Positions 1,783 to 50,100 of a stretch of 64,000 bases of DNA are shown here, one piece after another; position 1 is the stretch's first letter, and every line of letters begins with the position of its first letter. The position numbers and the translations under genes were made by a program. The notes beneath the pieces are model-generated. The model was not told the DNA's origin and ran no database searches. It saw only the letters and a list, made by a program, of their open reading frames with translations. Source of the stretch: Fennellomyces sp. T-0311 (taxonomy: Eukaryota; Mucoromycota; Mucoromycetes; Mucorales; Lichtheimiaceae); NCBI GenBank assembly GCA_025266875.1, contig JALLLT010000019.1, positions 434,001 to 498,000 on the forward strand, in the 5' to 3' direction.

Positions 1783-3555
1783 TTAACTTATGACAAACAT
1801 CTGCTTGGATTGTACAAGAGCATCATCAAAGCTAATCCTAGATCTCATAAAACATATGCCAATGGACGTGCAGGTTCCCTTGTTCTCTCTGACTACCGGA
1901 TACCCATAATAAAAGCCTAACTGGAAAGCTAGTCCTGTAAGGAAGACGCATTCGGAGCATTCTTCAGTCAATGACAGCAGTGCGCCGATGTGCGTTGGGG
2001 CCACCAATGTGTTGACAGCTACCTCGGTACCCTTTCTTGGTTGGTCCAACTTGTCAAGCATATTTGCAAATGAAAAATCCTTTTTGAACCATGATTCAAA
2101 CGGTATTGTATTGACACCTATATCGACTCTTTTTATTTCGAGAGGCAAGTAGTGCGTTGCTTTTACTCCAAAGCGCGTCGTTAACTTGTTGTATTCGTCT
2201 TGGGACTCGCTCGCTGTAGCAACGAATGTCAGATAGCCGGATGCGTATGCAACAATCCGTCCGTTTATTTCGGGGTGCATTTCGTAAAAGCCATCGTATG
2301 TACCGGATTTTGAGCTCGTGTGAATTGCGGCGGATCGTTCAACCGAGGAATCCGGTTTGATTCGAACGCGAATGAATTTGGAGTTTATACATAGATATTT
2401 TCCCGCGATGGAACGATGAAATGTTGCTTCATCGAAAATGATTGGGTCCTTAAAGATAGGAACATGTGCACCGGTTACCCCTGTCCATGATGGCAACAAG
2501 CTGGCTTCGGTTTCCTTGGCAATCATCGCTTTATTGCCGGGATGCGAGTCAATGGCAGCACCAAAAAGCAATATTGTGGCATCATTTCTAGCCAGTACTG
2601 AGTAGAATTGCGTCGTCAGGTCAATTAGCGGCTGGTCATAACTGAAGGTGATGCCACTCTTGAGGTCAGTAAATATGTTGGCAAGCGCAAATATCCGGTC
2701 ATGTGGTTTGCTGGTAGTGCGTGTCCTGGCGTATGACAATATCGTACTGGCCTTCCACTTGGTTTCGAGTCTGTTTTGAAAGTATTCAAGAAATGTGTCC
2801 GACTTTCTTTGGGGATTGAATTCCGAGATCTCGTTCAACCATATATGAACGTCGCGGCCAACAAAGAGGATGTTTCTCGACATGTACGCCTCTTCGAGAG
2901 TCCACATACGTTTGCTCCATTGGCTCTCTGGTATTACTCCCATATTTGCATAACCACCCCTGGTCTTGCCAGATTCGCATCTCAGTTCAGGTATGAGAGC
3001 CAAGGTACACCGGGCGTTTTTGTATATAAGATGCATCTGTTGTATTTCGCGCATTTTGCTATCGTGATCGTTTTGATCGATGCATAGCTGATCGTACCAA
3101 ATGTATGTGATACAGAAATCGATACATATTTGCTGGATAAGGTCATTAAAATTGACATATCGAATTCTCTGGGAAACTGAATCATCAATGGTAGTCGAAT
3201 TATCATATGTAATAATCTGATGACCGCAACTGTCAATCCGATCATATTTTTCACCGCCCCTGTGGATCAATTCCCCAGACTGGTTCCATGAGTATGACAG
3301 GCACCAATAATGACCTTTTACGGATGACCCAGGTACAACTTGCATGTTAGATACGCGAACAAGCCAGGTAGGCTTAAATATAGGAACCATAGGCGCTAAT
3401 AAGTAGCTATATTAGACTGTGAATTCTACATTCGTGTCATGGTCTTTGGCCTTACCATCGAAGGGTAGTGTAGGGCTCCAAAATTGAACAGAAGTTCGAA
3501 TCCTTCCAGCTGCGTTCAAGACTGTGCGCTGGTTCTCATCATACTCGATGTACAT
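1783..3555 (-). CDS. HET-domain-like protein, copy 1
   Basis: Member of a five-copy family in this window. Exon 1 (3555-3456) encodes MYIEYDENQ and about 25 further residues. A phase-1 intron (3455-3396, GTAAGG...TTAG) follows, then one long exon to the stop at 1783. The HET core is visible: HYWCLSYSWNQSGELIH (the Y-x-LSY-x-W box), then YIWYDQLCIDQNDHDSKM with M-x-LIYKNA after it, then RMWTLEEAY. These match the three blocks of the HET (heterokaryon incompatibility) domain. The remaining ~300 residues are conserved among the local copies, including SLTEECSECVFL near the end, but I do not recognise a domain there. HET proteins in ascomycetes act in non-self recognition and cell death; a similar role here is inference. 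The start is chosen because the first-exon peptide recurs in the paralogs. No transmembrane segment is evident. Confidence 0.8.
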
Positions 3556-3810
3556 TTTTTAGATATTGTGTGTATGAATCAATGTCAGTTTGCGCGCGCC
3601 AAGTGAGGGAAGAAAACAAATGTAATGGAACGGGAAAAGCGAAACAGAACAGATAAATCGTTAGGCTTGGCAACAAGAACCCCATTGTGAAACGTGCAAA
3701 TAGCTAAGCCTAAGCTTTGCATTACTCTTTTTGTTACAGTGATGTTAGGCTGAGAATCGAGGGCTTTGTGCTTGGTCGATCGCACTCGAACACTAATGTC
3801 AGGCCGCGGG

Positions 3811-3817
3811 TATAAAA
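3811..3817 (+). promoter_or_regulatory. TATA box upstream of the Hsp70-like gene
   Basis: TATAAAA inside a GC-richer context (GCGGGTATAAAAACG), 72 nt upstream of the first ATG of the Hsp70-like gene. This fits a core promoter for that gene. Confidence 0.45.
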
Positions 3818-3888
3818 ACGCTACGCTTTCTCCAGCAAGTAACTGCAGTAAAAGTAGAAATATTGGTTTGAGAAGAAGGGTTGCGCTC

Positions 3889-5511
3889 ATGAGCAACAGG
3901 AGCAAGACCGTAGTTTGGTATACCGAACCCCAGAACCCTCATTTTCTGGATTCAATCGTGATGACTACTCTGTCATTGTTGGCATCGACTTTGGTAAATT
4001 TGCACACTTTGGAAAAAACGTGCGGTACTTTTATTTAACCTTGTCCCATCGAGCAAAGGCACAACCCATTCGTGCTGTTCCTACGCATTCGCAGCATCGA
4101 ATGAAGTGTTCGACATTAGAAAATGGTAAATCATCTGGAAAGCGTATCAGCAAAATTTGGTTCCGCTGACACTTCGTTAGGCCAAGGTCCAATGGTATGA
4201 ATTCAAAGGTACCGATACTTGTATGTACAAAATTGAACATGACAAATCTAAAATTTCACGTACAGGTGCCTACGCTACTGCTGTACCGAAAAGGGTCAAC
4301 ACAACTAGTGCACTGGGGTATGGACGCACGAAGACGGATAATGAAGCCTGGCAGCGGCGATTTACTGCTCCTATACAACTTCAGACTGTACCTCGATGAA
4401 TATTTGCAAGAGGAAGTGCTTCCCAGCAACCTCCAAATCGTTGATGTCATTACTGATTATTTACACTCATTCCACCAGCACGCCTGTGCTGAGATCTGTA
4501 CAAATACCCTTGGCGTCAGCTACGATCAGAGCCAGTTCCGTTACGTAAGTTCCTGTAACCAAAGCAACGATCACGCGAGACTAGTCAATGATAACACTAC
4601 TGCTAGTTTTTGACAGTTCCCACCACGTGGAATGACCGTGCCAAGGCTATTATGCGCGAAGCTTCGATTCGTGCGGGTCTTGTGAAGCGTGGAGACCACC
4701 CTGACCGTCTCATACTGGTTTCTGAAACTCAGGCTGCAGTTTCCTACTGTCAGAGAAAATTAACATTGGCCCATGGTCAGCGCTTCATGATATGTGATGC
4801 TGGTGGCTCTACTGTTGACTTGACAGTCTTTGAGATTGATAAACAAAAAAATGGAAGGTATAAAAAAAGAATCATTGGGCACGGATAAGTTGGTGTCGAA
4901 TCTTCACATGGCATTTTTTCTTTATTAGACGATTGTATAAGGAATTGGCTAGTAACTCGTGCGGTTCAGGTTCCCTGAATCTACGTATGCGCAACTACAT
5001 TAAGCGGAGATTTTATCACTTTATAAACATTTCTGAAAAGGCCATGATGGATATCATGGATGAGTTCGTCGATCTTCTTAAGGTAAACGGGAAAGAGAAA
5101 CCATTACCTTCATTATTATCTTATGTGATTGATGAGTAGCCTGGATTTGACGGAAGCGAGGATCAGTACCTGGTTCTTCCAGAGTCAATGAGTTGCGAAA
5201 ACTTGACCGACGAAGATTTCAAGGCGATTGGCACCAAAGACTATAATTTAACTCTTCCAGTGAATGAACTGAAAGAACAGGTGTTTGATCCCGTAGTTGA
5301 TCCGGTGCTACAGTTGATTACGGAACAATTGGCGCAATCACCCGATTGTTTGGACGCGATCTTTCTTATTGGTAGTTTAAGCAAATCTATATACCTGTAC
5401 CGCCGAGCTGAGGAAATGTTTTCTAATCGTGTCGGTATGATAAAAGTTCCACCGAGAAGTGAACTGGCCTATTCTCGTGGTGCAACTTACTTTGGCCTCG
5501 ATCAATTATAA
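3889..5511 (+). CDS. HSPA12-like Hsp70 family ATPase
   Basis: Nucleotide-binding-domain-only Hsp70 relative of the HSPA12 type, an actin-fold ATPase family expanded in many fungi. Splicing by hand gives one frame from about 3915: exon to 3993, then 4059-4125, 4181-4208, 4266-4544, 4607-4857, 4929-5082 and 5140-5511. Joining the first two exons restores the phosphate-1 loop GIDFGTTHSCCSYAFA. Later motifs are VPTLLLYRKGST, FLTVPTTWNDRAKAIMREA, the phosphate-2 loop FMICDAGGSTVDLTVFEI and, at the end, ELAYSRGATYFGL. The apparent stop at 5137-5139 lies inside a 57-nt GTAAAC...TAG intron, so the gene can be intact. The true start is not resolved: the ATG at 3889 is in another frame, and a short upstream exon may be missing. 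The segment after the phosphate-2 loop is poorly conserved. HSPA12 relatives have no substrate-binding domain, and their clients are unknown. Confidence 0.75.
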
Positions 5512-7290
5512 AGTAGACCCTATTTAACTGTACATTATCAAATCTCCTATGTATCATACTAACGCAGGCTAAATAGTAGCACGCGCTGCGACGAACATAT
5601 TGGTACTTTTGTTATGGATAGAGCACATAAAACAGGTGATTGATTGATACATACACATATCGGGAGAAATTAGTCGATGCAATCATTGCATAAATGTTCC
5701 TTGGTGGAGATTTACAACGGCCATCCCACAAGAGTGCAATCAGACGCCTCCATTCATACCATAAATAGAATGGAGTGGAGCACCTTTGAGCAATTCAACA
5801 TAATATTGCATCATTAGTTGAAAAGTATTGATTTTATTATGGAAGACTTTTTGACCTGCTCCTGTAGGTATATGGTCGCTTCCTTGAGGTACGAATGTTT
5901 AGGTATAGAGGATAGTGCGTGTGCCATGTCTGAAAAAACCCTAATGGGAAAAAGACAGGCAGGGGTGGTAGAAGTGACAAGATAGGAATTAAAACAAGAA
6001 AGAAAAGAAACTATGGAGGCTTACAGCCAAAGAGTTGATGTTGCTTGAATATTGCATCATTAAGTGTGATGGATAGCTGTCTAAAATTGACTAGGGGAGG
6101 AAAAAGTTGGTACAAAGCACCACACTTTGGTCATGACAGCTAATTGGTATTTTCTCATTGCTATCAACACTCTCTCTTTGGTAGACCTAAACGCAAATAC
6201 GCCCAGCCACTTTTCCATGCTACCAAGTGTAGATATTTACACAAATTCACACAGAAAAGTGGGCATCTAGTTTATGATACAAAACAACCCGAGAACGTTA
6301 TGACAATTAAATTATCTTCTGTACCTACTTTCCAGCCGCTCAACTCTAACGTGGACCACACTTTTTTTTTACTTCTTTATTTTTTTGTATACTTTGATAA
6401 ATATGACAAATACTTGTGCATAAATTACAAGCGTCTTTATCTCTATTCTCGTAATCTGTATATCGCAGCTTTATTTTACACATGTGAATAGACGGATACC
6501 TATCTAAATTTGGAAGAGGCACTGGGTGTGCAAACATCCAATGAAAGTACCCCTATCCGCGAAGCTTACACTCCAATTCTACTTTTTGATCATAAAAAAA
6601 CGGAGTGTCGGTCATATTCTTATGGAGTGTCAGTAAAAAATCTTTACGATGCCGAGCTTACAACACGGAATTTTTACACTCATTCTGTCGCAAAATATCA
6701 CAGCGCGATTCTGTTTCAAAACGGCAGAACGATGCGACATGTATCCCTGACACGCCACAAAAGCGTACCAATAGTTTCAAGCATGCGATGGGGCATAGTC
6801 GTTTGCGGGTATAAGCACAGGACATAGTAACGAAATCAATGGACACACATGTGGATACATAGGTGACAAAATTGGATGGCATATGCACATAAGTTTGCGG
6901 TCTAAATGCAAGGTCAGTACAAATAAAGCATGTACACGCACGTTTAAGTGCTATACGTAACATGTTTGAAAAGTAAAAATATCTATATTCGGTTGCAAAA
7001 TAATTTTGCATATCTGCAAACGTCTTCCCCCCTTGCGGTTCAACGGAGTCAATATTTGGATCTAACGGACAAAACAAAAGGACCAATATACAATTCTACT
7101 TTGCTTTACATGACATCAGACGGATAACGGTGTTAATTATAGTTATACTATATTTAAGAAAAGTGAAAACTGCATGTACTTTAATGTTTAGTAGACAAAA
7201 AAAAAGTTACTGTGTTTCTATTTTTTAAAGGTATCGCATGGATACATCGATGAAGATAAAATTTCAACACGGCATCCGTGGCCATCGTTG
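5512..7290. other. AT-rich intergenic region without supported genes
   Basis: Only short ORFs on both strands with no coherent domains. I see no transposase motifs or long repeats. Confidence 0.5.
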
Positions 7291-7626
7291 CTAGGAGAGA
7301 GCATCGATAGCCGCGGGTTGTCCTTGAGTCAGTATGACCAGAGCAAAAGTAATGTAGTCAGGTACTCCGAGCTCAGACACGACGGTTTGATTACGTGTTT
7401 GACAACCAAAGTGTCGAAATAAACCAATATTGAGTACATGAACCATCTCTGCCGTTGATCTGAGTAGTATCCGGGCGATACGGCAGCGTAAAGGAAGCAA
7501 AACTGCATGTGCAATAGAACAGAACCATAGTCGGTGTTTGAACTCGTGGTTAAAGTGGATTAACTTGTCCAAGCACTCAATCTCCCTCTTTTGCAATATC
7601 CTTGAGAGGTAAACGGCGTTATCCAT
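7291..7626 (-). CDS. Small hypothetical ORF (111 aa)
   Basis: An ATG-started ORF divergent from the eL6 gene. It begins MDNAVYLSRILQKREIECLD and is followed by a His/Lys-rich stretch and a mildly hydrophobic middle. I do not recognise it. A shorter overlapping frame (7329-7514) is more hydrophobic, so a different spliced product is possible. It may be noncoding. Confidence 0.2.
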   Translation of the reverse strand: MDNAVYLSRILQKREIECLDKLIHFNHEFKHRLWFCSIAHAVLLPLRCRIARILLRSTAEMVHVLNIGLFRHFGCQTRNQTVVSELGVPDYITFALVILTQGQPAAIDALS

Positions 7627-7804
7627 GATGAAAAAAAAAGCGAATGGATGGAACGAGGGAGAGAGAGAAACGATGGATGAATGAAAAAATAGGATGGATG
7701 GATGGTGTCATTTTTTAAAAAAAATGGATACAGACGAAACGATTTCGACATTATTCAACTGACGCATCGATTGAAACAATTTTTGTAGAGGTTTTAATTC
7801 AGAA

Positions 7805-8538: not shown

Positions 8539-8759
8539 TTTCTTTCTTTTTTCGCAAATAATAAAGAGAGAGAGAGAAAAAACAACAACAACAGAATGCA
8601 ACGTCTGTATGCATAAGGAGGAAGGGTCATCATCATGCAAAAAATGAATGCCGACGAACGCCACCTGCTGCATAAGAAAAGGGGAGTGGGGCTAATTTGT
8701 TCAAACGGCATCCCTTTTTCTTCTTCTTCTTTTTTTTTTTTATTTTCTTTAAATGGACC

Positions 8760-11895: not shown

Positions 11896-11984
11896 TTTGT
11901 GTAAACAGAGTTTTTATATATATTTATGTTTGTGTGTGCGTGTGTGTGTGTGTGGAACTGAACAAAAAAAGACAAAGGGGGGTA

Positions 11985-13366
11985 TTACGTTTTGCGTGAA
12001 GCGGTATCGTCATCGTCATCATCCATACTGGAAATGACGGTATAGCCTCGATTGTAAGGATGCTGTGCTCGATCTTCTGCCATCCGTCGTTTCCGATAAT
12101 CAAACGGAAGAAACCGATCTTCCAGCATTTGTCGGTACTGTGCTTCTTCGGTGACCGGTTGGTGATCCGATTGGACTGTTCGCTTTGATCGAGCCGTGCG
12201 CAGCGGCGGTTCTTCGAGTAGTATTTCTTCGATTTCGTGAACGGCATCAAAGTTCATACTCTTTGGCTATATATGCGTGGTTAGGTAAACCGTTCCATTC
12301 CATTTATGATTCACAACGCAGCGTGTTCTACTTACGTCAGGAATGAATGGCGGTACGGCTCTCTTCATTTCCAACGCGTCCCAGTCGAGTCCGGCAAACC
12401 AACGGTGCTTTTTAAAGTTGGCGAAACTTTCCGCACCCAATCGATGACTTGGCGATCGTTCAAGCAGCTAAAATACGGCAGATCAGTAACCATTTGCAAA
12501 AGAAAGGAGGGAATTTTTGACGCTATATACGTACCCCAGTCAAGACATTCACACAGTCTTCTGATACGATCTGATAGACGTTTTCGGGAAACTCCAACGG
12601 GTCGTGCAAAATAGCGTCTGCTGTTTGGTCAGTTGACTTTTGCCTGAACGGGCGTTTGCCAAAAAGCAATTCGTACGCCACGATGCCCAAGCTCCACCAG
12701 TCGACCGAGGTGGCATAGCCCTGTTTGTTCAAGATTTCGGGCGCCATGTAAGCCAGGGTGCCGGCCGTTGACCATTTCAAAGGCTTTTTGTCGCTAAAGG
12801 CATAGGCCACGTTGAAATCGGAGAGATGGGCGTGGCCACGTTCGTCAAGCAGAATATTTTCCGGCTTGATATCGCGATGGGCAATACGTCGACGGTGCAG
12901 ATAATTCAAGGAGAGACCGATTTGGGCAACATAAAACCGGACCTGAAGCTCGGACAAGGTCCGCACGCGTTCCAACAGAAATCGAAGATCGCCGCCGAGC
13001 ATCAAGTCCAAGGCCATGAATAACGTGTCATCATCTTGGAAAGCGTAGCGTAGATTGACTATTAATGGGAAATCGATACGTTCCAAGAGTCTGCGTTCGC
13101 TGATAATGTTGCCAATGGATTTGCGCTGGATGCACCGTTCTTTCGAAATGTACTTTAGGGCAAATTCTCGCCCGCTCTGCTTGTGTCGAACAATGCGTAC
13201 TTTGCCGAATGCGCCTTTCCCAATCGCTCGCAAAAGATAAAAGTGATTCAACTGGACCTCTTAATAATATTTTGTGTTGGTTTGAATCTGCCAAAGATAA
13301 AAAACCGACGCGGGCCATACCTTCATTGACGAAATCGATTTCAGTTTTGCAGCAAACGGCACCCAT
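11985..13366 (-). CDS. STK32-like (YANK) AGC-group Ser/Thr protein kinase
   Basis: Small AGC-like kinase. Exon 1 encodes MGAVCCKTEIDFVNE, with Gly2 plus a Cys pair that suggest N-myristoylation and palmitoylation, hence membrane attachment. After a phase-1 intron come the glycine loop (AIGKGAFGKV), the VAIK-type lysine (FALKYISK), HRDIKPENILLD, and DFN in place of DFG, a substitution also found in animal STK32 kinases. APE is present in AYMAPEIL. The C-lobe continues into an AGC-style tail with HRLGAESFANFKKH, WDALEMKRAVPPFIPD and an acidic end (DDDDDDTASRKT). Introns near 12540-12470 and 12340-12270 join these pieces. It lies tail-to-tail with the exchanger gene and shares a short 3' spacer with it. 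Substrates of this family are poorly known. Confidence 0.88.
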
Positions 13367-13523
13367 GGCCGTCGTACTTGAGAAAAGGGGGTTGGGTTGA
13401 AACAAGAAAAAAAGTTGTTGCGAGGTGGGAATAGACCTTGTTTGACGTAGGACAAGGCAAAAAAAAACATGGATCAAGAAGCAAGTGTAACAGTGTGTGT
13501 GTGTATTCAGATATAAAGAATTA

Positions 13524-15468: not shown

Positions 15469-18400
15469 ATGAGTTCACCCAAAGAAGACATTCCTGACAT
15501 TGGTACCTTGCATCCATTGCAGTTTTTTTTTCTTATATAAACGTCCAATTATTCAATTGCAGAAAAACCTGAACAACTCAGTTTTGTCAAATTCTACCGA
15601 TCGCTGTCAGAGGTTGAATGGATATAAAACACCACTCATTCAAGCATACAACTAAACCCTCGGCCGTGTTATAGACCACGGAAGGCACCTTGCGTCTTTT
15701 CGAACGCGAGGCGAATCAAAAACGATACTATTCGGTGCATGGCGAAAACGCCCAGTATGTCGCGAAACAAGTCTACAAGACCAGCTCGGTGATCAAGTAC
15801 TGGGGAGGTAATTGTATCCAAAGGGTGGTGGGAGGTCGCAGGGTGCATAGAGGCTCACGAAAAAAGGAGTTAGGCGATGAAGGATTGGAAACGACCACCG
15901 TGGGCAGTGGCGTGGCGGAATCGTTTTTGCGCGATGCACTGGTCAACAAGCAACTGCGGATCGAAATTTGGTCGTCCAATCGTGGACAGTGGCAGTTGTC
16001 GCGTAGGGCGTCTCCCGGAAACCTTCAAGAGGTGGAGGATTTGTTGTTTTTCAATTCCAATCTTACCGTGGCACCGATTGTCATGGCTGTCCAATTTGGC
16101 GCCGGTATTGAAAGAGTAAGTGGTCACCCTCCACCTTTGCAATCGTTAAAACATAGCGAATGTGTTATAGATGGTGGGAGCTACATTTGTGGATACCACG
16201 ACCAAACAGCTTGGTGTGTCTGAATTTGTCGACAACGAAGTCTATTCAAACTTTGAGGTACAGGCTTTATCGAATGTCTCTATGAATGCATGCTTAATGC
16301 AAGTACTATACAGTCGCTGGTGATCCAGCTGGGCGTAAAGGAATGCATCGTCCCGCAGAGCAACGATTACGAGATGACCAAACTCAAAAGCGTATTGGAT
16401 CGATGCCGTATCTCTGTCACAGAAACCAAAAAAGGTAAAACTGCAACCATGCGTCCAACGAAAGACTTATCCATGGTTAGCCGACTACAATCCCAAGGAC
16501 ATTGTGCAAGATCTCAACAGACTACTCAAAGGCGAGCTATCCATTGCTGTCCAGCGTAAGTCTTTTTTTTACCAATTTATATAAAAGAAACCTAAGAAAT
16601 CCATAGCCGCATACGAAAAGAAGCATGCGATGGGGGCATGCGCATGTATCATCAAATACCTGCGACTATTGAACGACGAAAGCAACTTTGGACACTACGA
16701 GCTGAAATACCATGATTTGTCGCAATACATGCGACTGGACGCTGCCGCACTCAGCGCACTCAACCTGATGCCGAATCCGCAAGACGGATCCAACAAGACG
16801 ATGAATCTGTACGGATTGCTGAACCATTGCAGAACTGCGCAGGGGGCTCGACTGCTCATGCAATGGCTGAAGCAGCCGCTCTTGAACGTGGATGAAATCC
16901 ATCGTCGTCAAGATCTGGTCCAGATCATGTACGACAATACCGAACTGCGTCAATCGGTTCAGGAACAGCATTTAAAATCGGTGCCGGATATCCAGCGATT
17001 GGCCAAACGGTTCGATAAGCGCATGGCTTCTCTTCAAGTAAGGAGGTGGTTTTGTATATACAATGGAGATTGTTGATGATGGCGTAGGACGTGGTCAGGA
17101 TATACCAGGTTGTCATTGGATTGCCTGGTCTCTTGACCTGTTTGGAAATGAATGTTCCGGAGGAGGAAGCACTGGCGAACCTTGTGCATGAAATATACGC
17201 GGCACCACTGAAAGTAAGTGTCTTTTTATTATTATTGGCGAGAGATGAAACTCTGAAAAAGAAAGGGGGAACATAGGATTGTGCTGCAAGATTACACAAA
17301 TTGCAAGACATGGTGGAACAAACAATTGATTTGGACGCGGTGGAGCATCATGAGTTCATCATCAAGCCGGATCTGGACGAGTCATTGAAAGGTCTTTGAA
17401 AACATTGAACAGTCGAATGCATTCAACTGAACGGGGTAGGATAGATATTCGAGAGAGAATCGACCATACGCGCAATCAAATGAACGCGGAGCATCGACGG
17501 GTGGGCAGCAAGCTCGGATTGGAATTGGACAAGAAGCTCAAATTGGAGAAACACAACTTATACGGATACTGTTTCCGCGTGACTCGGACGGATGCGTCAA
17601 GTCTCCGGAACAAGTCCGAATATATCGAGTATGCTACACAAAAAGCGGGCGTGTACTTTGCGACAGGCGCGTTGAAAGAGTTGAGCACAAGTTGGAATGA
17701 CATGTCAAAGGAATACGATCGTCGACAGGCGGATTTGATCAAGGAGATTATTGAGATTGTTGGTAAGTTTTTTTTTACGCCTGTTTCAGATGGATAGAGT
17801 TGTTCAATCACAAACGTTTAGCTACTTATTGCCCGGTACTGGAGTCGCTGGGTGGTCTATTGGCGCATTTGGATGTGATTGTCAGGTATTTGCTTATACA
17901 CACACAGCCGTAGCAGTGACAAGGGAGCTCATGGACGACAACAGTATGGCCCACGTGTCGATCATGGCACCCATTCCGTATGTTCGACCCACAGTACAAA
18001 GAACGGGTAAACGGTCAAATCCAAAAAAAATAGAGTTTTGTCAAGAACCATAACACTTTATATGATAGGCGGGATTGACCTTGTTGCATCGCGACATCCA
18101 TGCTTGGAAGTGCAAGATGACGTGGTGTTTATTCCCAACGACATAAAAATGGTCAAAGGTTATACAGTGGCATTTTTTTTTATTTTTGTCAGCTGATAAT
18201 AAGTGTTAGATGCATCCGAATTCCAAATCATCACTGGTCCAAACATGGGCGGCAAGTCAACTTATATCCGTCAGGTAAGTATGACAGTGGATTCAAAAGC
18301 CTAAAGGCTGATTTGCGTTTTAAAAATAGACGGGGGTGATCATGTTGTTGGCTCAGGTTGGATGCTTCGTTCCGTGTCAAGAAGCCAGGGTGGGCATTGT

Positions 18401-19325: not shown

Positions 19326-19402
19326 ATAGGCCATCATACACACCTACACACACATATGCAACAGAAAAAAAAAAAAAAACTCGCTCTTTTTCCCTTTCTT
19401 CC

Positions 19403-19408
<6 letters not shown>

Positions 19409-19441: not shown

Positions 19442-19446
<5 letters not shown>

Positions 19447-25282: not shown

Positions 25283-26982
25283 CGAAGACGACGAGACCAC
25301 GAGTGACGATAGCAATGATGATGATGATGATTTGGAGCATGGAATAGCCAAAATCAGCCTTGCTCAATTGCTGGATATTCCACCTGAAGCTGCAGCACGC
25401 TACACTTTGAGTCGCAATCATCAAGAAGCCTGTGTTCGACTCCTGGACACCATACCCACCCCCATCCTTGTCTATTACGCCATGGATGTGTTCAAGCTCA
25501 ACCAGCTGGTCGGACACGGTGGCGACTTGGAAGAGGACGGTATCAAGCTGTGCACTCTGCTTATGCGAGACGGGCATTTCAATGAAGCCGTTTCTTGCAT
25601 TCGGAAACTGGACTTGTTCGAAGCGTTTCCCATCGACAAGTTCGCTGCCAAAATGTTTGCCGCCAATCAAGGCAGCATATTGCCGGTGTATACCAGCGGA
25701 CATCCGGACATGCAGCGCCTTTTGCTGGAGTATATCAATATCCAATTACAGTATACCTTTGCCGGCAATCTGGGCATTGTTCCTGCAGGTAAACTCACCT
25801 TTTTGGATGGATCCACGGATTGCTTAAAAAGGAAATTCAGAATATCTGGAAAATGTCGAGGAGGATGAAAAGTCAACGCCGCCCTTGCCTCGTCTTCGTG
25901 AACGGCGGTTTCAGAAAGAACTAACGGCGTGCGCTGCCAAAGTAATGCAGGAAAGTGATCTGGATCAGTCCGAGTACTACTTTGTGTGGCTAGCGCAACG
26001 GTACGCGACGCTTCGATGGATCATCAAAGGAAGGGCGGTGCAACAATACGAAGAAAATGACATGTCGATTGCGGCGAGTTCGAACCACAACGGACTGGTC
26101 GATCTCATATGTTCTAATGAACCACCGCTGGCCAAGCTCGCAATCAAAGAGTTTGTCGACATGAACGACAATGTTGCGTCGGTGTACTTTGCGAATCGAT
26201 TTGGACAGCAACAGTTCTTTACCAAATACCATGCGCTGCCACTCCGCGACCGATCGGTGGGGATGCTCAAGGGAGAAACACTGTCGACGAGCCATGTCGG
26301 ATCACCGAGACGGTCCCCCGTCAGCAGGCCGGTGTATTACAAACTGCCCAACGGCGTGCGGCCCATCATGGTGGACAGCCACCAACGGGTGATGCAGCTC
26401 AAGGCGACGCTGACGCAGACCAAGGTGTGCGGACTGGATACCGAGTGGGTGCCCCAGTTTGCGCGCTCGACGGGTGTCAAGACGGCACTGATGCAGATCG
26501 CGTCGGATCGCGGGGTGGTGTATTTGGTGGACATTGCCACGGCGCTGCATCCAACGAATATTGCGCTGTTGCAGGATATCGATTTGGTCCTTCGCATGAT
26601 GTTTGAATCTCCCCACATCGTCAAGCTGGCGTACGATTTTCACGGCGATTTTGCCCTGTTGAAGGAATGCATGCCCACAGCTTCGGACTGGCACACAGTC
26701 CAATTGCTCGACTTTAAATCCCTACGCACGCATACCAATGAGCCTATCCCCGGCGGCCTGGCAGGTGTTGTGTCTACCTTTTTGGGCGTGACAATGAACA
26801 AGAAACAGCAGCTGAGTAACTGGGAACAGCGTCCGCTGACCATGGATCAGGCCAATTACGCGGCAAGCGACGCATACTGCTTGATTGAAATCCATACCAC
26901 CCTCGTCTCCACCCGACACCCGTTTATTAAGCCATCCACTCCCTCTCCACCGCGCTCCGATCCCGACCTCGTTCAGTTTTGA
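24596..26982 (+). CDS. DEDD-type 3'-5' exonuclease (EXD3/mut-7-like)
   Basis: RNase D-like nuclease. The N-terminal ~450 residues are mostly helical, with a poly-Asp run encoded by GAT/GAC repeats (25222-25340). The C-terminal domain carries the catalytic motifs: GLDTEWVPQF (Exo I, D-x-E), LAYDFHGDFALLKE (Exo II) and NYAASDAYCLIEIH (Exo III, Y-x3-D, so DEDDy). Overall order resembles the animal mut-7/EXD3 proteins, which process small RNAs or mRNAs. Introns: 24938-25019, which needs a GC-AG donor (TTTTG/GCAAGT) to keep phase 0, and 25789-25840 (GT-AG). A nearby GT (GTAAAC) would force a frame change. The ATG at 24596 is the first in frame before MSGHDSDSSDEEW. It ends just before the convergent histone deacetylase gene. 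Confidence 0.85.
25222..25340 (+). repeat. GAT/GAC trinucleotide repeat encoding poly-Asp
   Basis: In-frame GAY repeat inside the exonuclease gene, giving a run of about 17 Asp with a few Glu, then a second shorter run. It probably varies in length between strains. Confidence 0.9.
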
Positions 26983-27087: not shown

Positions 27088-28678
27088 TTACATTAGGTCA
27101 TCATCTTTTTGCCACACAGAATCAACAGCTTCACCGTCATTGTCGTCGTCTCCTTCGTACCACTCAGCCTCAGCCATCACTTCTCGACGACGCCGCTGCT
27201 CCTTGCCAATTTCCGAATCATCTTCGGCATCGCGCAACTCGGCGTCACCGTCCAAGAACCCCTGGATATCCGGTGGGATTTCTTGCATTTGAATGCTCGG
27301 CGCCGCATCCAGATAGCGCAACTGCTCCATGACGCGTTCGCGGACTTTGAGCAGATACTGGCGATCATTCTGATTCTCCACGCGACCCGACAAGTGGGGA
27401 TGGAGTTGGTAATCGGGTTTGAAGAAATCAATGTATTCGTTGGGCGGCAAGTCGTTGGAAAGTTCAGTGTCCACCAGGATCGACGTCTCGTATGTCCAGC
27501 ATCGTGCGACGTTTCGTACGGTGTACCCACCTCCGCCCACCACCAACAGCGGGATCTTGAACTCTTTGATGATCTGCACGCATTTGCCGTGGGCCTCGAT
27601 ACTCAGATTGAAGCATCCCAAGCGATCGCAGCCCAGGGAATCAGCGCCGCATTGGAGCACGATGGCGGAGGGTTGGAACGTGCCAATGACGGCATCGATG
27701 GTTTCCTTGAAGAGCCAGACGTAGGACACGTCATCGATGCCGTCGCGGAGGGGGACATTGACGGAATAGTACTTGCCCAGGGACGAGCCGATTTCGTCAA
27801 TGTGACCTGTACCTGGAAAGAAATCGCCGTTGTATTTGTGGAAACTGACGGTCATGACGCGATCTGTGGAATAAAATGCTTCTTGGACGCCATCGCCGTG
27901 ATGAATATCGATATCGACGTAAAGGACGCGAGGGAAATAGCGTAACAGTTCAAGAATGCCGAGCACAATGTCATTGACGTAGCAGAATCCGCTCGCTTCG
28001 CACTTTTTGGCATGGTGAAGACCGCCGGACCAGTTGATACAGATATCCGCTCCTCCTGCAATCAACTTACGTGATGCTTCGATGGTTGCGCCGGCGTATC
28101 GCTGACAAAAGTCGTAAATGCCCGAAAATATCGGACAGTCGTCGCCCACGTTGAATTTGGTAAACACGCTCTCGAATTCTTCGGCATTGTCTGGTGTCAC
28201 TCTGTTTGCAAAATCCCCGTTTCAGCCAACTTTCTTTTTAAGCTCTACAGTTGCAAAAAAAAGGTGAAGACCTATCTACCTTTTTAAAAAATCAACGTAA
28301 TCATCCGCATGGAATTCCAAAATCTCGGAATCCGTCGCTCGTCTAGGTTGAAAGATTTCCATTTTCTGATGCAGCCCATACTTGAGCACAAGATGATTCG
28401 TCAGTGTCAATCGATGCGGTTTCATTGGATGTCGTTCCTAGTTTGCACCCATTGTAAGTTTGCGAATAGATGGATCAGGAACTCTCTCTATTTTTTTTAG
28501 CGCTTACGCCATAGTGATAATTGCCAACTCCTTCATCGTGGAAATAGGCAACGCGAGTTTTGTCGTGTGAAGCTAATCGCATCGATCGAGGTGACATGTA
28601 TTTGGCTTTTTGTGTCGAGCCTTGATCCTCGGTAAAGGTGGCAACCACACTTTCGTCATTGTATGATCGACGAGGCAT
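27088..28678 (-). CDS. Class I histone deacetylase (HOS2/HDAC3-like)
   Basis: Zinc-dependent deacetylase of the RPD3 class. Exon 1 starts at 28678 ([15 protein letters not shown]) and ends [18 protein letters not shown]...CTAG intron leads to [16 protein letters not shown], and a second intron joins at VDFLK/RVTPDN. Catalytic landmarks: GGLHHAKK (tandem His), [14 protein letters not shown] (zinc and charge-relay residues), [27 protein letters not shown] and [18 protein letters not shown]. The acidic C-terminal tail ([11 protein letters not shown]) is usual. HERHPMKP plus NVGDDCPIF place it nearer HOS2/HDAC3 than RPD3. Everything needed for activity is present. It is tail-to-tail with the exonuclease gene, about 100 nt apart. 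Confidence 0.95.
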
Positions 28679-39259: not shown

Positions 39260-41063
39260 TTACAAGATATCAAAAGTTTTTTCGGGTTGGATAATCTTGG
39301 AAAAGTGCTCTCTTGGGTCATCCAGACCGCATGCTCCAATCACTCTGTAATAATCCTTCTCCTTTTTGATTACGGGATAAAGGTGAAGAAAGCTCGCTTC
39401 CTTAAAATATGGCTCCAAAAGGATGATACATTCAGAGCATTCTTCGGTGAGTGATAAAACTCCACCACAGGATGTTGGCTTTGTCAGAGTATTAGTGGCA
39501 GTTTTATCTTTTTCGTCCGTTGTCAAAGGCAAAAAATGGGTCGGTTTCAATCCAAGTCTGAAAATCGAGCTGGTGTAAAGTGGCAGCGATTTTTCTGGTA
39601 TCTCAGCAAACGTCAGATCCGTAGAACCGTTATCTGTAGTGATATGGCGATGCTCCATAGTATGGTGCATTGTAAATTCGCATTCCGGCAAGCCATCCAA
39701 TGTAAAAATGGTATTTTCATCCTTGTTTCTGTAGCACTCGGTCGTTCCAACACCATCCGCTAATAACCAGAGTAACTCCTGGTATTTTTCGGGGTTGTCA
39801 AAGTCATCAATAAATATCTCTACTGCGTTGGCAGCTTTTACATGAGCAGTAATAAAACTGGACGTTAAGCGCATGCAATCTCCGGTAATCGTATAAGGAG
39901 GTTCTGTCTTAACCTTTTCGGGTGCAAGAACGAACTGTACTACATGAGCGCCATTTGCACCAGTCCACGATGGTAGTAAGCCTGCTTCGTGTTGTCGAGT
40001 TGTCGTAATTTTGTCTTCTGGGTCAGGTATGCCAGGGGCACCGAACAGCATCATCGATATATCCTTCTCTGCCAAGTCACGGTAGAATTTAATCATCAAG
40101 TCGTATAGCGGCTGCTTATAGCTAAAGGTGATGCCACCCATGAGTTCCGGGAAGATATTGGCCAGCGCAAACATTCGGTCGTGTGCTTTGCTGCTTGTAC
40201 GACGCCTTGCGTACCATAGCACAGTGCATGCCACCCACTCTGCACCCACGGTTCTGGTTGTGGCAGAAAGGTGTGCATATGCTGATCTCCATATTAGGTC
40301 GACATCACTCCAGGTATGTACGTTATGGCCAAGGAAGAGGATATTTTTGGAAAGGTAAGCTTCCTCGAGTGTCCAGATACGTTGGCACCATTCACTCTTT
40401 GAAATACACTCAATGTTCGGTTTCCCCAATATGCCATTTTTCAATGTCCATCGAAGTTCAGGTATAAGAGCGATTGTGCAACAAGCATTCTTGTAAATAT
40501 TGTGCATCTGCTTTATCTCTTGCATCTTTGCGTCGTGGTCTCCTTGGTTGATGCATATTTGGTCAAACCAAATATAATTGACACCAAAATCCTTGCATAT
40601 TTGTTGAATGAGGCATTCAAAAGTGACGTTCCTGGTAATTGCAGTTTCCTGGTCAAAGTCGGTGTCTGTCACTACTTCGGGTTTGTAGCCACTTTTTTCC
40701 ATAATGTGACCCTCAATTCGTCGGTATTCGGTGATCTTGTGCTTGCCATCATCACGTCGTTCGTAATCTTCGCCACCTTTGTGGATCAGTTCTCCCGATT
40801 GACCCCAAGAGTATGACAGGGCCCAGTAATCCTCATTTACTGATGCTCCTGGCACCGCCGTCATATCCGATACCCTGACAAGCCAGGTGGGCTTAAACCC
40901 GTACTCTATGTATATAATTGAACGTATAAGAATGACTGTGTATTTGATGCAATATGTTCCGACCTCGGGGACCAGAGCCTCGATATTTGAAATCGGCGCT
41001 CCCTCCTAATTCTCGAGAATTTCCTTCGGTGAACTGCTGGTTTCTTATGTACTCTATATACAT
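39260..41063 (-). CDS. HET-domain-like protein, copy 4
   Basis: Exon 1 starts at 41063 with MYIEYIRNQQFTEGN and runs to 40964. The phase-1 intron 40963-40906 joins to EYGFKPTWLVRVSDMTAV. HET blocks: DYWALSYSWGQSGELIHKG, YIWFDQICINQGDHDAKMQE, MHNIYKNA and QRIWTLEEAYLSKN. The central AHDRMFALANIFPELMGG and the C-terminal SLTEECSECIILLEP and YPVIKKEKDYY segments are kept, ending PEKTFDIL. It is a little more divergent than copies 2 and 3, with Gly replacing Asn after the SYSW box and Phe for Tyr in the IWFDQ block. The frame is open throughout, so probably functional. Confidence 0.82.
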
Positions 41064-42819: not shown

Positions 42820-45450
42820 TGCGCCACGAACCAGAACGATTCGTCATATGGTACATTGCCGCACCCTACATCGTCAGCCATACCAGAGTGGCAATTCGCG
42901 ATATATTTATAGTACAAGCATCTTTGCAGACGGATAAGTGTAGGGCTGGATGATGGTTGAGAGTTGGTGGTCCTTAAACCACGGTATTGTTATGCTGTTT
43001 TTGAGTCAATTCGGACACAACTAAAAATTGACAAGAGCAACTTGTCTAAATGAGTTTTTTCTATGATTCCTCAATAAGATTAATGACCTAAAAGGTTAGT
43101 TAAAATGACCCGCAGGAGCTCTTGCGTTTTATCTTATAATCAAAATTGCCGACTGTGGTAATATCCTGCAAAAAGAATATTAAGATTAGCTTCTATATAA
43201 TAGTACGGCTCTCAAAGGACCGGAACCATCTTAGGTTCTGAGTGGATCAAATAGTACAAAAAATCAAAGAGACTTCGAAAAGTATCTTTGAAGTTTCGAA
43301 TATACTTTGTTGAATGCAACGCTCTATGCTTTTATATGTATCTTTTCGTATATTGAATCAGCAATCCCAGTTTAGATAGTGTTTCATCTTCAGAATTGCC
43401 TAAATGGATAGAGGACGTATAGGATCCTTTCCTTTGCTCTGATCATGCGGACCTGAGCATGTCTTTGACATCCACCCTGCAGTATGATGACCGCTGGTGC
43501 ACAGGACACTCTCAACAGTCAGCTGATGGATGTGATATGCCCTCAGAGCGAAGTGTTAGATGATGCCAAAGAGAATCACTTACATTCAATCAGGGCATCG
43601 GTTAAGTAAATATTTATCCATCATTAACGCAATCGCCAGTTAATTTATATAGGTAGCAAGTTGTTAATCTGGGTAAAACATTAATAAAATCCAGGCGCTG
43701 CTGATCCAAACTTAGGCAGGCGGTTTTATTTTGATGATAACCAGAATTAGGAGCTGAGGTCATTGGTATGATGGCGTTCGAGGATTAGTAAATTGTTATG
43801 AAGAACCCGTCATAAGGATGAGATAGCGAATACTGCTATAGCGAAAAAAGATAGCATAATGCAACGAGGTGATTGCATCATTCGCTATTTCTGTTTTCCT
43901 ACCACAAACACATACAAGCGAGGTATAGCTCCTGTGCATAATTCCAGCCCTGGCTATAGCCTCTTACGGGTACTGACACTTTAACGCACGACATTGACAG
44001 GTAGCTTGCAGGCTATCTATTTAAAGCCTATTGATTACAGTCTTGACGGCACTTTTGTGGGTCGACAGTCTTTATCATCCTTTGTCATGCACAAGGCGAC
44101 CTGTTACAGAACCAAGCTCTGCACTCCACTGACATCTTCCCAGTGCACATAGCCATCCGGTCTTGGAGCAGTATAAACTTACTAGAGGTTCGTTTTCAAT
44201 GGTTGTGTCAACATATGCATTTGCTGACATAGCCAAATTTTGTCAAGGCTTTTCGTCAGTTTATCGAGACTTAAAATATCTCAGTCGACATAACGTTCGA
44301 CACTGCAAGAATTAGAAGCATCAAAGAGTTACCACTTGATGTGAACCAGCCGCTGATGTCAACTCCAGATGGCTGAACTTCATGTGAGTACCTGCGCTGC
44401 TTTAAGGAAAACCAGGAATACCTAGTAGCCGGAGATATATGATCAAAACCGGTTTCAATGCTTGGCAAGCCGTTCAAGATTAGCAAGCTTGGCGGCGCAA
44501 AACAGAGGGTCTTGCCAACGATTATTGTGCTGTGGAAACTGATGGGATATATTCCAGAACCTCGCGATAAGACTTTTATGGGTATCATTTAGCTGCTAAA
44601 GTTTCAAATTGTTTATAAGCACATAATTGTCATTGGTAATGTCAAAATATCTCCTGAACGTTCACCGATTTCTGAGGAACAAATATTTTGGATTGGTGAC
44701 CAGCACAACGATAGACCCTTGAGAATTGATCAAGTGATGGCCATATTCAGATTGTTGCAGAAAACAGAGCCACAGCATTCGCTTCAGATTGTAATAAGCC
44801 GATTATTTATCTTGTGGTAATGGCAACAATCTACATGACAATAGTTGTGAATCAATTGAGTGTACGCGGTAACCTACAAGTACGACAATGAACAAAAAAG
44901 GAATAGCTTAATTCAAACGTTTTGATATTTTATTAATGCCACTCTAAAATTGCCACTTGCAGAACTGCATGTTGATGATCCTGCGGACAGAAAAAAAGGT
45001 ACGCACATACGTAGGTAAATATTGGTGAATCAGGAGCTGCGATAAACAACGTATGCGACGGCGGTGAATGATCTACAGAGCTCAATCCATCGGCTCGCGA
45101 AAATACACAATGATTACCAATATATTTGAAAAGAACGACAGCCTTGGCGCGCGCACACAAAACCGTTTCGCTTTGACGTAAGTTCTAGTGTAATCTCAGG
45201 TTCAAGTTGTTGGATTTTTCGGAAGATTGCGAAAAGATTAAAGGCAACAGATTACGAATGCCAATGTTGCAAACTGGCCACTTTGCAAGTTGGCGCTTGT
45301 GACGAAAAACCTAGACCCTGTTCTTAGTGTGTAAAAATAATATTTGTCGCAAATTGAACGAAAAGGGTCAGCGTTTACAAAAAAGGCAAAGTTTTGATCT
45401 ATGCAGACGAAAACTTGGCATATACCGCATTGGGTTTGGTGAGCGAGACC
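42820..45450. other. Long AT-rich intergenic region
   Basis: About 2.6 kb. An ORF at 44271-44588 (minus) and fragments near 44340-44780 (plus) have no recognisable domain and are interrupted in every frame. It could be an old degraded element, but I cannot name it. Confidence 0.4.
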
Positions 45451-45462
45451 TATATATATAAA
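45451..45462 (+). promoter_or_regulatory. TATA box of the MARVEL-like gene
   Basis: TATATATATAAA, 53-64 nt upstream of the ATG at 45515, followed by a C/T-rich leader. A good core-promoter candidate. Confidence 0.5.
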
Positions 45463-45514
45463 CCCATTATTTTTGGATCCGTTTCTCCTTCTTTTTCTCT
45501 AAGCACATTTCATT

Positions 45515-46492
45515 ATGGTGAATCTCGAATTACCGATCACCGTACCCGACAACATGCCGCACCTGGGCACCGTGAAAGTGTGGGCGCATTTGAGCCAAGT
45601 GGTCTTGACCCTGCTTACGATCTGCACCGTCGCGCCTGTCATTGCCACCGAAATACGATTTTACGTAAACTAGCAAAGTCAGGCCCACCGCAATTTGGAC
45701 TGCTAACTACGTTTTGTAGAGTGGAAGTCAAGCCGGACCCAACTGGACACTGTTTGTTGCAATATTCACGTCATGGATCCCGGTTCTCCTTGTTTACTTC
45801 CCATGGGCATATGATCGAAAGAACAAGTTCAAGCGGATCGGCAAATTTTGCTTGAAGCCAAGAACCAACCTGATTTTTACAGGGTTCGGTTCCTTGATGT
45901 GGGCCGCAGCGGGTATTGCCATGGCAGTCCACGCCAATAACCCCGATCACTGCAATATTGACAGCGAACGCGCAGCAGATGACGGTGACTATGCATCCGC
46001 GTGGTCAGCTCAGGTAATAAGTGATCTATTTTTTGTTATTGTCTGCTAACACATATCTTTTTTTAGTGTAACTGTGCCAAGGCTGCAGCCGGGTTTGCTT
46101 GGATTACCTGTCTCATGTGGATAGCCACGTTGATCTGCAGCGTGATTATTTTTTGGAACGAAAAGCAGCTTATCCAAAAAAATCTGCGCGAGCACCAGCA
46201 AAACAAACAGGAGGCGCTTGCTCAGCAGGAGCAAGGCGAAGCAATGATGGAGAACGAAGCCCATCCGGAAGACAATGTAAAGTACCAGGTTCCTTCGCAG
46301 CAAAACACCTATTATCATCCTAGTCCTACGCCGCCGCCACATGCAATCACTGAGCCATATCCTGTCGACTATCGTACCAACACTGTGACACCACCTCAGC
46401 AGTACCTTTACCCTAGTAACAGCGCTACACCTAGTCAATATCCACAGTATCACGCTGAAACCACGCCCATGCCAATGGCTCAACGCTTCTAA
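45515..46492 (+). CDS. Four-helix membrane protein, MARVEL-like
   Basis: Three exons: 45515-45664, 45720-46013 and 46067-46492. Splicing gives MVNLELPITVPDNMPHLG, helix 1 (VVLTLLTICTVAPVIA), then SGSQAGPNWTLFVAIFTSW with helix 2, FTGFGSLMWAAAGIAMAV (helix 3), a luminal loop with Cys (HCNIDSERA and CNCAKAA), and helix 4 (FAWITCLMWIATLICSVIIF). The tail is Gln/Pro/Tyr-rich and ends MAQRF. Four helices with charged short loops and a paired-Cys loop before helix 4 match MARVEL-type fungal proteins, which act in membrane apposition or at eisosome-like sites. This is topology-based and less certain than a motif match. No defect is seen. Confidence 0.72.
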
Positions 46493-46586
46493 TCCTGTCC
46501 ATATCCATTACTTGTATAACACATTTTTTTTCCGTGGTATTTTCTCTTGTAAATAAAACAAACTTGCATCTCTATAAGGGGTAACT

Positions 46587-48033
46587 TCAATTGTTCTTGG
46601 CATTGGCGGGTAACGTAAAGTGATGTTCAGCGTACGCACGCTCAATCTCATCCCACAGGGTATTGACTTTTGCCAATGTCCAATTGAACTGGCGACACAG
46701 CCGTACAACCGTCCGCCATTGCGTTGCTGTGCCGCCGTGTGATAGATAGAAGCTTCGCAGCTTGCGATAAAACGTTGACCGTACTTCGTTCTCATCCTCT
46801 ATCCTATCTGCATCCACCTGTGCCAGTGCCTCCACATACTGCCGATGCTCCTTGATTCTGCCTTTGAGTTGCGCATATTCCGCCTGTGCTTCATCGTGTC
46901 GCTTGCATGCTGCCAGGAACTGAGCCTGGTTGGTGATAGGATCCACAGCAAATGGTTCCGCAAACTCGTCGTCGCTTTCAGATGACGATGATTGGGGCGG
47001 TAACGTCGCTGGAACAGCCGGCACAGCAGGAACGGAGGGTGTTGGGAGTGGCGGCGGCGGCGCTGCTGGTGGCGCTTTGGCCTTGGTTTTCGTCTTTTTC
47101 TTCTTTTTGGCTGGCGGGTCCTCTACTGCAGGGCGTTTGCGCGGGGATGAAGCATCCGCGGAGGGCCGACGCTGCGGTGGTGGTGGAACAAGGTGTTGCG
47201 GCTTTTTAGGTTGGAGATTGGCTCGTTCAGGGGCATTGGGTGGCAGCTTGAGCGCAGCATAAGCATCATGGGCATTCTTCAACACCGTCTTGCGTTCCTT
47301 TTCATCATAACGCCATTCCCATATTCGGATATCAGGGTAAACCACTGGCCGAAGCCGCCAATTTCCTTTTGATGATGTAGCAACCTGGACCTTGTGTGTC
47401 AATTCCCTCATCCTTGCACACAAACGCACCACTTACTTTTTTCAGCACAGGGACCAGATCCTCGTCGTGGGTTCGGAGTAGAGTAGTCAATTGGGACAAT
47501 GGCAGTGGTTGTATGGCAAGCAGGTGGATCAGACGTTCTCGGAGGGTGGATGATGTGGTGGATGGACGAGGCGATGCACGGTGGGATGAGGGTGATAAGA
47601 CAGGGCGGATGGGCGTGGCAGCTTTGCGTGGCGAGGGTATACTCGGACCATCGAGTAACTCTATCCGCCGTGAGTTCTTTTCGCGCTTGGCCGCTTCTGT
47701 CTTGCTTCGAAATCGTGATTTGTCTTCTTGCGAAAGCACTTGCTTCATCGTTGCCCGATGAGTCACACTGCTGACATGCTGTATGCTGTAACCTGGTCCA
47801 CCGATATATAACTCATGGGCCGTTAACGGATCGGGCATCACGTTGACCGGAAACGATTTACCGCCTATAACCAATGCCTACAGCACGTTTGTTATATAAA
47901 GTTGTCTATACAGTAAAGACCACATTTGGAACCATACACTGTCGTTGCCATTCAACTCAAACTGGATCTTTTCCGGTGCATTTTGTAGTATTTCAAGTGC
48001 TTCTCGATTGAGACGTAAACCAATTGCCTTCAT
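46587..48033 (-). CDS. RNA polymerase II elongation factor ELL-like
   Basis: ELL-type transcription elongation factor, nuclear. The N-terminus (MKAIGLRLNREALEILQNAP, KIQFELNGND) continues through an intron into GKSFPVNVMPDPLTAHELY and the conserved STLRERLIHLLAIQPLPLSQ winged-helix stretch. A second intron with a strong GTAAGT donor (about 47434 to 47388) joins KK to VQVATSSKGNWRLRP and RIWEWRYDEKERKTVL, as in the ELL family. A Lys/Pro-rich linker (KKKKKTKTKAK) precedes the C-terminal occludin/ELL domain (QFLAACKRHDEAQAEYAQLK, then LCRQFNWTLAKVNTLWDEIE). Without the second intron the two halves would be in different frames. The ATG at 48033 is the first in frame; a few more N-terminal residues could come from an upstream exon I could not find. 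Confidence 0.75.
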
Positions 48034-48492
48034 GTTAAAGAGGAGCGTGGTGCCCTGAACCAATCAAAAATCGATTTTTGTGCTTGAACACTGGTGGCCA
48101 GATCAATTTGAACGACTGACTTGGTCTATTTCCAAGACTACGTCAGCTTCATCATCAGATGTAATTGATGCTTTATATTTACCAACAAATTATAACGGGT
48201 TGCCCCAGCCTTTGGTGAAAGGCAAGTAAGTCAAGTGGAAGAAACCATCAAATAGCTCTTTGTTCTTTATCCAGGTTTCGGCTGTCAACAATGAATGAGC
48301 TCTCTAAACCCAGCAACGGTAACTTTAGTACTGATCCATTCTATTCTTAATGCGGACAAAGAGACCCACAGCGGCATGACATCGTACCAATTGCTCTTGC
48401 TTGCGATCATAATAAAGAATATGCTTGCCGTATGTATCAACATTGCTCCCTCCCATATTTATATTATTCAATGGTGATTCTCTGTTTGGTTG
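48034..48492. other. Spacer between ELL-like gene and HET pseudogene
   Basis: Short sequence upstream of the ELL start; no gene supported. Confidence 0.4.
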
Positions 48493-50100
48493 CTATGGAA
48501 GAGTCAAATTTAAATCCGGGGTCAATAAAACACACACCAATCGATTTGTAGTGGTTGCCTTTCTTTTGTAACAACCGGATGAGCTATCAGTAGATGATAA
48601 TAGTAAAGCTGAAACGGTGCTCCAGACAATACAAGACATTCGGAACAATCCTCGATGAACGACAACCATGACCAATTCTTTTGGTTCCGAAATCGTGTTG
48701 ATCCATGCCCCGTTTTCTTCCTTAACGGGAAGAAAATGTGTTGCCTTCAATCCGTAATCTTGGGTATAGAGATTATGATCGTCCTGTGACACGCCTGCCG
48801 TCGAAGCAAACGTCATATGTATGGGACCAGATGCAGCGATCTGCAACAGCTCATCTCGATCAAGAACCACCAAAGGATGCGTAGGCAATCCATCCTCTGA
48901 ATTTCGACGGCAATCGTCGTTCATGGTAATCTTTTGAGGGCGCCCGCGTTTTTGATAGAAACGGGGACACAGCTGCAAGTCAGATGCAAAGATCTTTCGG
49001 TGACGGAGAGTCGGTGAAGTCAGGAAATGTAGGTTCAGATTCTTCCGGCATATGTGGTGTGTGCATACCACCATCACCTGTCCAAGACAGCAATCTAGGA
49101 TCTTTGGTTTCTCAAGCGGTGTGCCGAAGCATAGCACGGATAAGTCCTTTTGCGCCAAGAGACCGTAAAATTGAATCATCAGATCTAACATAGGCTGCTC
49201 ATAGCTGAATGTAATATCGGACTTGAGTTCCGGAAATATTTTGGCAAGCACAAAAATTCGATTGTGTGCCTTGCTGCTGGTTCGTATGCGTGCAAACCAT
49301 AAAGTCGTGCTGGCAGTCCAATCCACTGACTTGCTGCAGATATTCCAAATAAAGTATTCGGCATTCGAGTCATTCAGAGCATCTTTGCTGCTTACAATAT
49401 GGGGCCACATATGACGTTACCGCCGAGAAAAAGTATCGATCGAGACATGTATGCTTCTTCCAAAGTTCACGCGCGTTGGCTCCATTGACAATCAGGGATC
49501 ATATCGATATTAGCGTTGGAGGAGCGTTCCAATTCTGGGATCAGGGCATCCGTGCAGCGAGCATGTCGATAGACTAGATGCATTCGTTTGATTTCTCGTA
49601 TTTTTTCCTCTGGATCATCTTGGTTGATGCACATTTGGTCATACCATATGTAATGGACACCAAAATCTTCGGATATTTGCCGAATAAGGTCTTCAAACTT
49701 GACAAAGTCGGTGTGCTTCTTGCTTGTTTTTTTTGACTTTTCGACCCTTCCGGCTTGGCAGACGTTTGATATGTGACTATTTGGTGCTTTGGTTCATCTT
49801 TGATTTGATATTCTTCGTCATCAATCGTGATAATTTCTCCAGATCGGTTCCAGGAATATGGCAAGGGCCAGTATTCCTCACGTATATCGGTCCCAGAAAC
49901 GTGTGTCATCGGGTGTACGGACAAGCCAACTTGGTTTAAAGTCGGATTCTATCAGAATTTTAGGCGACTTCTCTTGGTCATAAAAGCAGTCGAAACACAC
50001 CTTCTTCTTCAGTATCTTCTGGAGGGACGCTCCGCGGTAGGCCAATATCACCATCTAAAGTGTATATTTCTCGTTGATTTCTCTAGTATACAATGTACAT
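48493..50100 (-). pseudogene. HET-domain-like pseudogene, copy 5
   Basis: The family signature is present but broken. The first-exon start reads MYIVY and then stops (TAG, 50083-50085) where the paralogs have I/V-R-N-Q. The core is recognisable as EYWPLPYSWNRSGEI and YIWYDQMCINQDDPEEKIRE. In the WTLEEAY block the Trp codon is TGA (49467-49469). A one-base deletion around 49412 shifts the frame inside FLGGNV. The rest continues in the new frame (RTSSKAHNRIFVLAKIFPEL, PLEKPKILDCCLGQ) and ends without the family's usual FDIK. At least two stops and a frameshift make this copy inactive. It preserves intact-copy order, so decay happened in place. Confidence 0.85.

Follow-up and report, generated by a model that had tools for sequence, protein, structure and literature searches.

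Lichtheimia is a member of the Lichtheimiaceae, a family of the Mucorales. In Lichtheimia corymbifera, 52 genes encoding a HET domain, with tandem copies and regulation by stress, were published in 2014 (PMC4133162), and multiple HET copies are described from Apophysomyces (PMC5604411). Podospora has 132 HET-domain genes (PMC10890737), and the roles of HET domains beyond incompatibility are named as a gap in the same paper and left open in another (PMC10197012). The present analysis concerns the HET genes in a stretch of 64,000 nucleotides (the window) from Fennellomyces sp. T-0311 (assembly GCA_025266875.1, contig JALLLT010000019.1, positions 434,001 to 498,000 of the forward strand). A preliminary description of this DNA had taken its source for an early-diverging fungus, which agrees with the NCBI taxonomy (Mucoromycota, Mucorales, Lichtheimiaceae). 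The window genes belong to a HET family of the Lichtheimiaceae that has grown to about 145 loci in this strain, most likely by birth-and-death. HET expansion in the Lichtheimiaceae is thus already published, and the Fennellomyces set is larger. Among the titles and abstract openings listed by the literature searches, none concerned HET genes of Fennellomyces, and HET annotation of Fennellomyces proteins is already in public records. Since that annotation exists and the expansions in Lichtheimia and Apophysomyces are published, the Fennellomyces set can be seen as a larger case of a known phenomenon.

The HET copies in the window are as follows (scores are for the Pfam HET profile, PF06985, whose curated cut-off is 22.5 bits):

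1783..3555, minus strand: HET gene 1, with two exons and its main open frame at 1783-3411; 51.6 bits
33243..35171, minus strand: HET gene 2, first in a tandem array; 60.7 bits
36133..37910, minus strand: HET gene 3, middle of the tandem array; 54.7 bits
39260..41063, minus strand: HET gene 4, last in the tandem array; 61.6 bits
48482..50100, minus strand: full-length HET pseudogene (tblastn pieces, three-frame translations, HET match in the genome search)
50995..51147, plus strand: sixth HET copy, a fragment covering the LPSWTG region (inverted repeats I2-I4; tblastn)

The preliminary description had reported a family of five HET-like genes in one stretch, four of them apparently intact. The four open reading frames (ORFs) are present on the minus strand with the left ends it gave (1783, 33243, 36133 and 39260), all of them score above the Pfam cut-off, and all contain the blocks SYSW, IW(Y/F)DQxCI(N/D)Q and WTL(E/Q)EAY. 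Its pseudogene is equally real: tblastn pieces with in-frame stops lie in three minus-strand frames across 48482-50100. Frameshifts and a number of stops disrupt this copy, one stop falling in its first exon and one within WTLEE. The raw ORFs of this copy have no Pfam match, and its HET region was recovered by a six-frame search of the genome (C94:483497-483700, E 1.5e-11). All five copies therefore exist, but the sixth (tblastn E 2.1e-7 to 8.2e-4 with seven queries) had been overlooked. The copies do not make up a single compact cluster: three genes stand in the head-to-tail array, the pseudogene lies about 7 kb away from it and gene 1783 about 30 kb away.

MYIEY is encoded by a 5′ exon in genes 1783, 36133 and 39260, which puts the ends of these genes at 3555, 37910 and 41063. 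For 1783 and 36133 this first exon is in the public gene models; for 39260 it is inferred at 41063, from a splice read from the DNA. The public model P0020 is 99.6% identical to gene 1783 (460 amino acids, aa) and its C-terminus is shorter than the open frame, P0001 is 96.9% identical to 33243 over 642 aligned columns, the open frame being longer by 20 residues, and P0002 is 100% identical to the ORF of 36133 over 527 aa.

The window holds a small part of the family. The six-frame search of the whole genome with PF06985 gave 145 matches at E<=0.001, all above the cut-off. The true number of loci may be slightly higher, because 150 of the 157 candidates in this census were scored; two additional protein queries, compared by eye with the census list, gave no clearly new locus. 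At 110 of the 145 loci the frame is open for 450 aa or more, and the frames of the other 35 are short or broken, although some of these may be intact genes that contain introns. The loci are clustered: 42 of the 145 lie less than 10 kb from another, versus about nine expected if they were scattered (taking the genome as one line and ignoring contig ends), and 17 of the 22 adjacent pairs less than 10 kb apart are on the same strand. One pair, C110:446191-446469 (+) and C110:467132-467410 (-), consists of copies about 21 kb apart, both with frames of 483 aa and near-equal scores; its opposite orientation is perhaps the result of a recent inverted duplication. The pattern as a whole fits the in-place decay and the birth-and-death suggested in the preliminary description.

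Two trees were made, both quick trees without bootstrap, in which the ascomycete branches are long and some joins may be false. The full-length tree has 82 rows, i.e., 69 Fennellomyces ORFs (at least 450 aa and more than 250 bits) and 13 chosen relatives; 48 partial ORFs and L001-L008, which duplicate later loci, were left out, and 17 loci have no ORF reaching both thresholds. The HET-region tree has 142 rows, the same 69 ORFs with 73 chosen relatives, which are selected matches rather than all. In the 82-row tree, the contig label changes 33 times, versus 58.3 in shuffles, although the genes of contigs C106, C90, C99, C121 and C120 (five of the 11 groups listed) show no clustering of their own. 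Contig-mates thus tend to be sisters, as the idea of a local expansion would have it, but the expansion itself, with its 145 matches, is genome-wide.

A clade of local paralogues had also been anticipated. The three array genes do group, but the four intact window genes form no clade: as a set they are weakly clustered, with three changes, and 20 of 500 shuffles were equally low. In the 82-row tree, the array genes share a group with further genes of C94 and a single gene of C121, with support of 95-96 in the Shimodaira–Hasegawa-like approximate likelihood ratio test (SH-aLRT), and gene 1783 falls outside the C94 set that holds them; in the 142-row tree, they are in a clade of nine rows, of which eight belong to C94 and the ninth to C121 (SH-aLRT 99). 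The array genes are 53-55% identical to one another and 38-42% identical to gene 1783, from which it follows that the tandem array is old. By these sequence comparisons, gene 1783 is a more distant paralogue of the array genes.

The family also occurs in Zychaea, Circinella and Phascolomyces. In the 142-row tree, a branch with SH-aLRT 98 sets 132 Lichtheimiaceae rows (127 with a species name and five without) apart from the ascomycete ones, of which only five are named. The same tree has a set of 35 rows from Fennellomyces only (support 81) and a set of 16 rows from Phascolomyces only (support 97). No burst is seen among the seven rows of Zychaea, and several pairs of sisters are present in Circinella minor and C. 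umbellata. One Circinella minor protein, P0050 (1124 aa), has three HET stretches and is apparently a double HET protein or a fused gene model; P0053 is a HET protein scoring 109.8 bits.

The proteins of this family share one architecture, in the order MYIxY N-terminus, HET domain, helical middle, LPSW motif and C-terminal beta-rich domain. The start motif is MYIxY-x3-Q. Scored with a hidden Markov model built mostly from window-type proteins, 27 ORFs exceed 480 bits, and MYIxY is in frame in seven of them and just upstream in 16 of the other 20, whereas it is in frame in 35 of the 42 lower-scoring ORFs; in the higher-scoring genes, the motif is usually on a separate 5′ exon. For comparison, 11 other HETs were used (five named ascomycete proteins and six others). 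The profile alignment to these is strong across about the first 300 residues (E 2.6e-27), and the ten residues that are invariant in them recur in the window family, the same in kind and in spacing. All ten are retained in 61 of the 69 long ORFs. The DQxC block keeps its Asp and Cys, and WTLEE its Trp and Glu, in 69 of 69, in a sample which, being selected for length, is biased to intact copies.

The C-terminal domain is common to both Lichtheimiaceae alignments (hhalign probability 99.6%). Its homology to the C-termini of the 11 comparison HETs was considered and is unsupported (hhalign probability 0.8% and 0.5%); three of those 11 have a C-terminal Pfam domain, PF26639, which was unreported in the Pfam scan used. 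The model of the C-terminal domain is confident (predicted local distance difference test 85.7, predicted template modelling score 0.85) and found no good match among solved structures; this predicted domain may be new. In the HET ORFs of the window, as in ten further ORFs of the family (527-676 aa), HET is the sole Pfam domain to exceed its cut-off; NACHT, NB-ARC and repeat domains do not reach theirs. A search of the Fennellomyces sp. T-0311 genome for NOD-like receptors (NLRs) likewise gave none above cut-off.

The favoured explanation, which is given about an even chance of being right, is that the window genes encode stand-alone, TIR-like sensor-effectors of cell-autonomous defence that are in birth-and-death. 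The HET domain would be a TIR-like enzyme or signalling domain, possibly with N-glycosidase or nicotinamide adenine dinucleotide (NAD)-type chemistry at the invariant Glu of WTLEE, and would stay inactive as long as no trigger is sensed by the variable C-terminal domain. Viruses, invaders and altered host proteins would be candidate triggers; the firing of the HET domain would harm or kill the hyphal compartment. As no NLR exceeded the cut-off, a single polypeptide probably contains both sensor and effector. A more far-reaching version is put forward tentatively, as more likely wrong than right: Fennellomyces would have an NLR-free innate-immune repertoire of about 110 intact genes, in each of which a TIR-like HET effector is fused directly to a C-terminal sensor that diverges fast and whose fold is unmatched. 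The expansions in Fennellomyces and Phascolomyces, at least, would have been independent. If true, the function of HET in these fungi would be defence, not somatic incompatibility.

Three results weigh against the defence explanation. Selection was tested in 93 pairs from 19 genes; the pairs are non-independent, include only those more than 72% identical, and 15 of the 19 genes are on contig C150. No window gene is among the 19, since none has a relative more than 58% identical, which is too diverged for the test. No positive selection was seen: the median omega is 0.38 in the HET domain and 0.45 in the C-terminus, the latter being higher in 63 of the 93 pairs. Secondly, gene conversion between the two halves of the genes was considered, the medians of dS (synonymous divergence) being unequal in a mosaic-like manner (0.43 for the HET half and 0.30 for the C-terminal half), and was rejected: at four-fold sites, none of the 93 pairs fell below 5e-4 and one fell below 0.01. 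Thirdly, several Lichtheimia HET genes are down-regulated in iron depletion and in hypoxia (PMC4133162), which fits a role in stress equally well.

This last result speaks for non-lethal regulators of stress or metabolism, i.e., HET proteins that tune NAD or nucleotide signalling in hypoxia, iron limitation or development. That the 19 closely related genes tested are under purifying selection (omega about 0.4) would suit such regulators, although around 145 diverging copies, about a quarter of them short or broken, would be unexpected for a core metabolic regulator; this explanation is a serious possibility, if an improbable one. Somatic allorecognition, i.e., strict heterokaryon incompatibility, in which hyphae die once they have fused with those of a strain that differs, allelically or non-allelically, appears unlikely. 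It would account for the identity of the domain, which ascomycete het genes use (PMC10890737), and for the turnover in copy number with decay in place. However, incompatibility genes are four of the 132 HET-domain genes of Podospora (PMC10890737), and heterokaryons of Mucorales are stated in PMC4133162 to come only from sexual fusion and not from somatic cell fusion. With no heterokaryons from somatic fusion, according to that paper, allorecognition is not easily the main cause of the expansion.

Somewhat less probable still is neutral amplification, by which an old HET gene was copied by tandem duplication and rearrangement and has little present function. That 35 of the 145 loci are short or broken, that HET fragments occur and that eight of the 69 long ORFs have lost at least one of the ten conserved residues speaks for it; the 110 frames of at least 450 aa, the four residues kept in every long ORF (in that intact-biased sample) and an omega below 1 in the tested pairs speak against it. 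Genome defence against transposons, a role proposed because transposons are scarce in Lichtheimia and Apophysomyces (PMC4133162, PMC5604411), is very improbable: the proposal is only a correlation in those accounts, the window holds a MULE transposase gene (58.5 kb) and a weak tnp2-like ORF (62 kb), and the family ORFs scanned have no nucleic-acid-acting Pfam domain above cut-off (a sub-threshold Rad10 in L033).

Gene 1783 is separated from the array by other genes, the first four of the following; the fifth entry is an ORF just under the Pfam cut-off (all by Pfam):

12523-13260, minus strand: protein kinase
15675-16223, plus strand: weak MutS domain I
25828-26982, plus strand: 3′-5′ exonuclease
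27088-28221, minus strand: histone deacetylase
47332-47877, minus strand: ELL-like, just under the cut-off

The MULE transposase domain (58527-59492, minus strand, 71.6 bits) marks a DNA transposon gene near the HET region, and the ORF at 62422-63900 (minus strand) is weakly similar to tnp2 transposases (15.9 bits, under the cut-off). An inverted repeat (43242-43337 and 58226-58321; 96 nucleotides, 84% complementary) has 15 kb between its arms. An Rfam scan of the window gave no match.

The closest described system is the set of Lichtheimia corymbifera, which is likewise from the Lichtheimiaceae, consists of PF06985 proteins and forms a large paralogous set with tandems and weak similarity to dikaryan HETs, but has 52 members versus about 145 loci in Fennellomyces; among the matches of the protein searches with this family, no protein was Lichtheimia-named, and some rows had no species name. 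The stand-alone ascomycete HETs (BH of het-B, TOL and PIN-C) resemble the Fennellomyces proteins in their N-terminal HET domain and PSW-type motif and BH, by description, also in its beta-rich C-terminal part (PMC10890737). The Fennellomyces family differs from ascomycete HETs in its MYIxY N-terminus and its separate position in the tree. In the comparison set of 11, which does not include BH, TOL or PIN-C, the likeness is in the ten residues and their spacing, and the C-termini are without profile similarity. For a HET-lectin of the BH type, the confident C-terminal model had no good counterpart among the solved-structure matches listed. The NLRs of the HNWD type (HET-D, HET-E and HET-R) have the HET domain in common with the Fennellomyces ORFs scanned, which are without NACHT, NB-ARC or repeat domains above cut-off. 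At the sequence level, the Fennellomyces HET had no PDB match to TIR, nucleoside 2′-deoxyribosyltransferases or ThsA, and the model of 39260 (main exon only) places additional strands after the first one, ahead of the long helix that follows, a predicted difference from these folds. In relation to the NAD-consuming TIR enzymes, the Glu of WTLEE, invariant in the long ORFs, is a candidate catalytic residue by sequence only. With HET loci about as numerous as the HET-domain genes of Podospora, with NLRs not found and, by PMC4133162, with no heterokaryons from somatic fusion, Fennellomyces is a natural place for asking what the roles of HET domains are.
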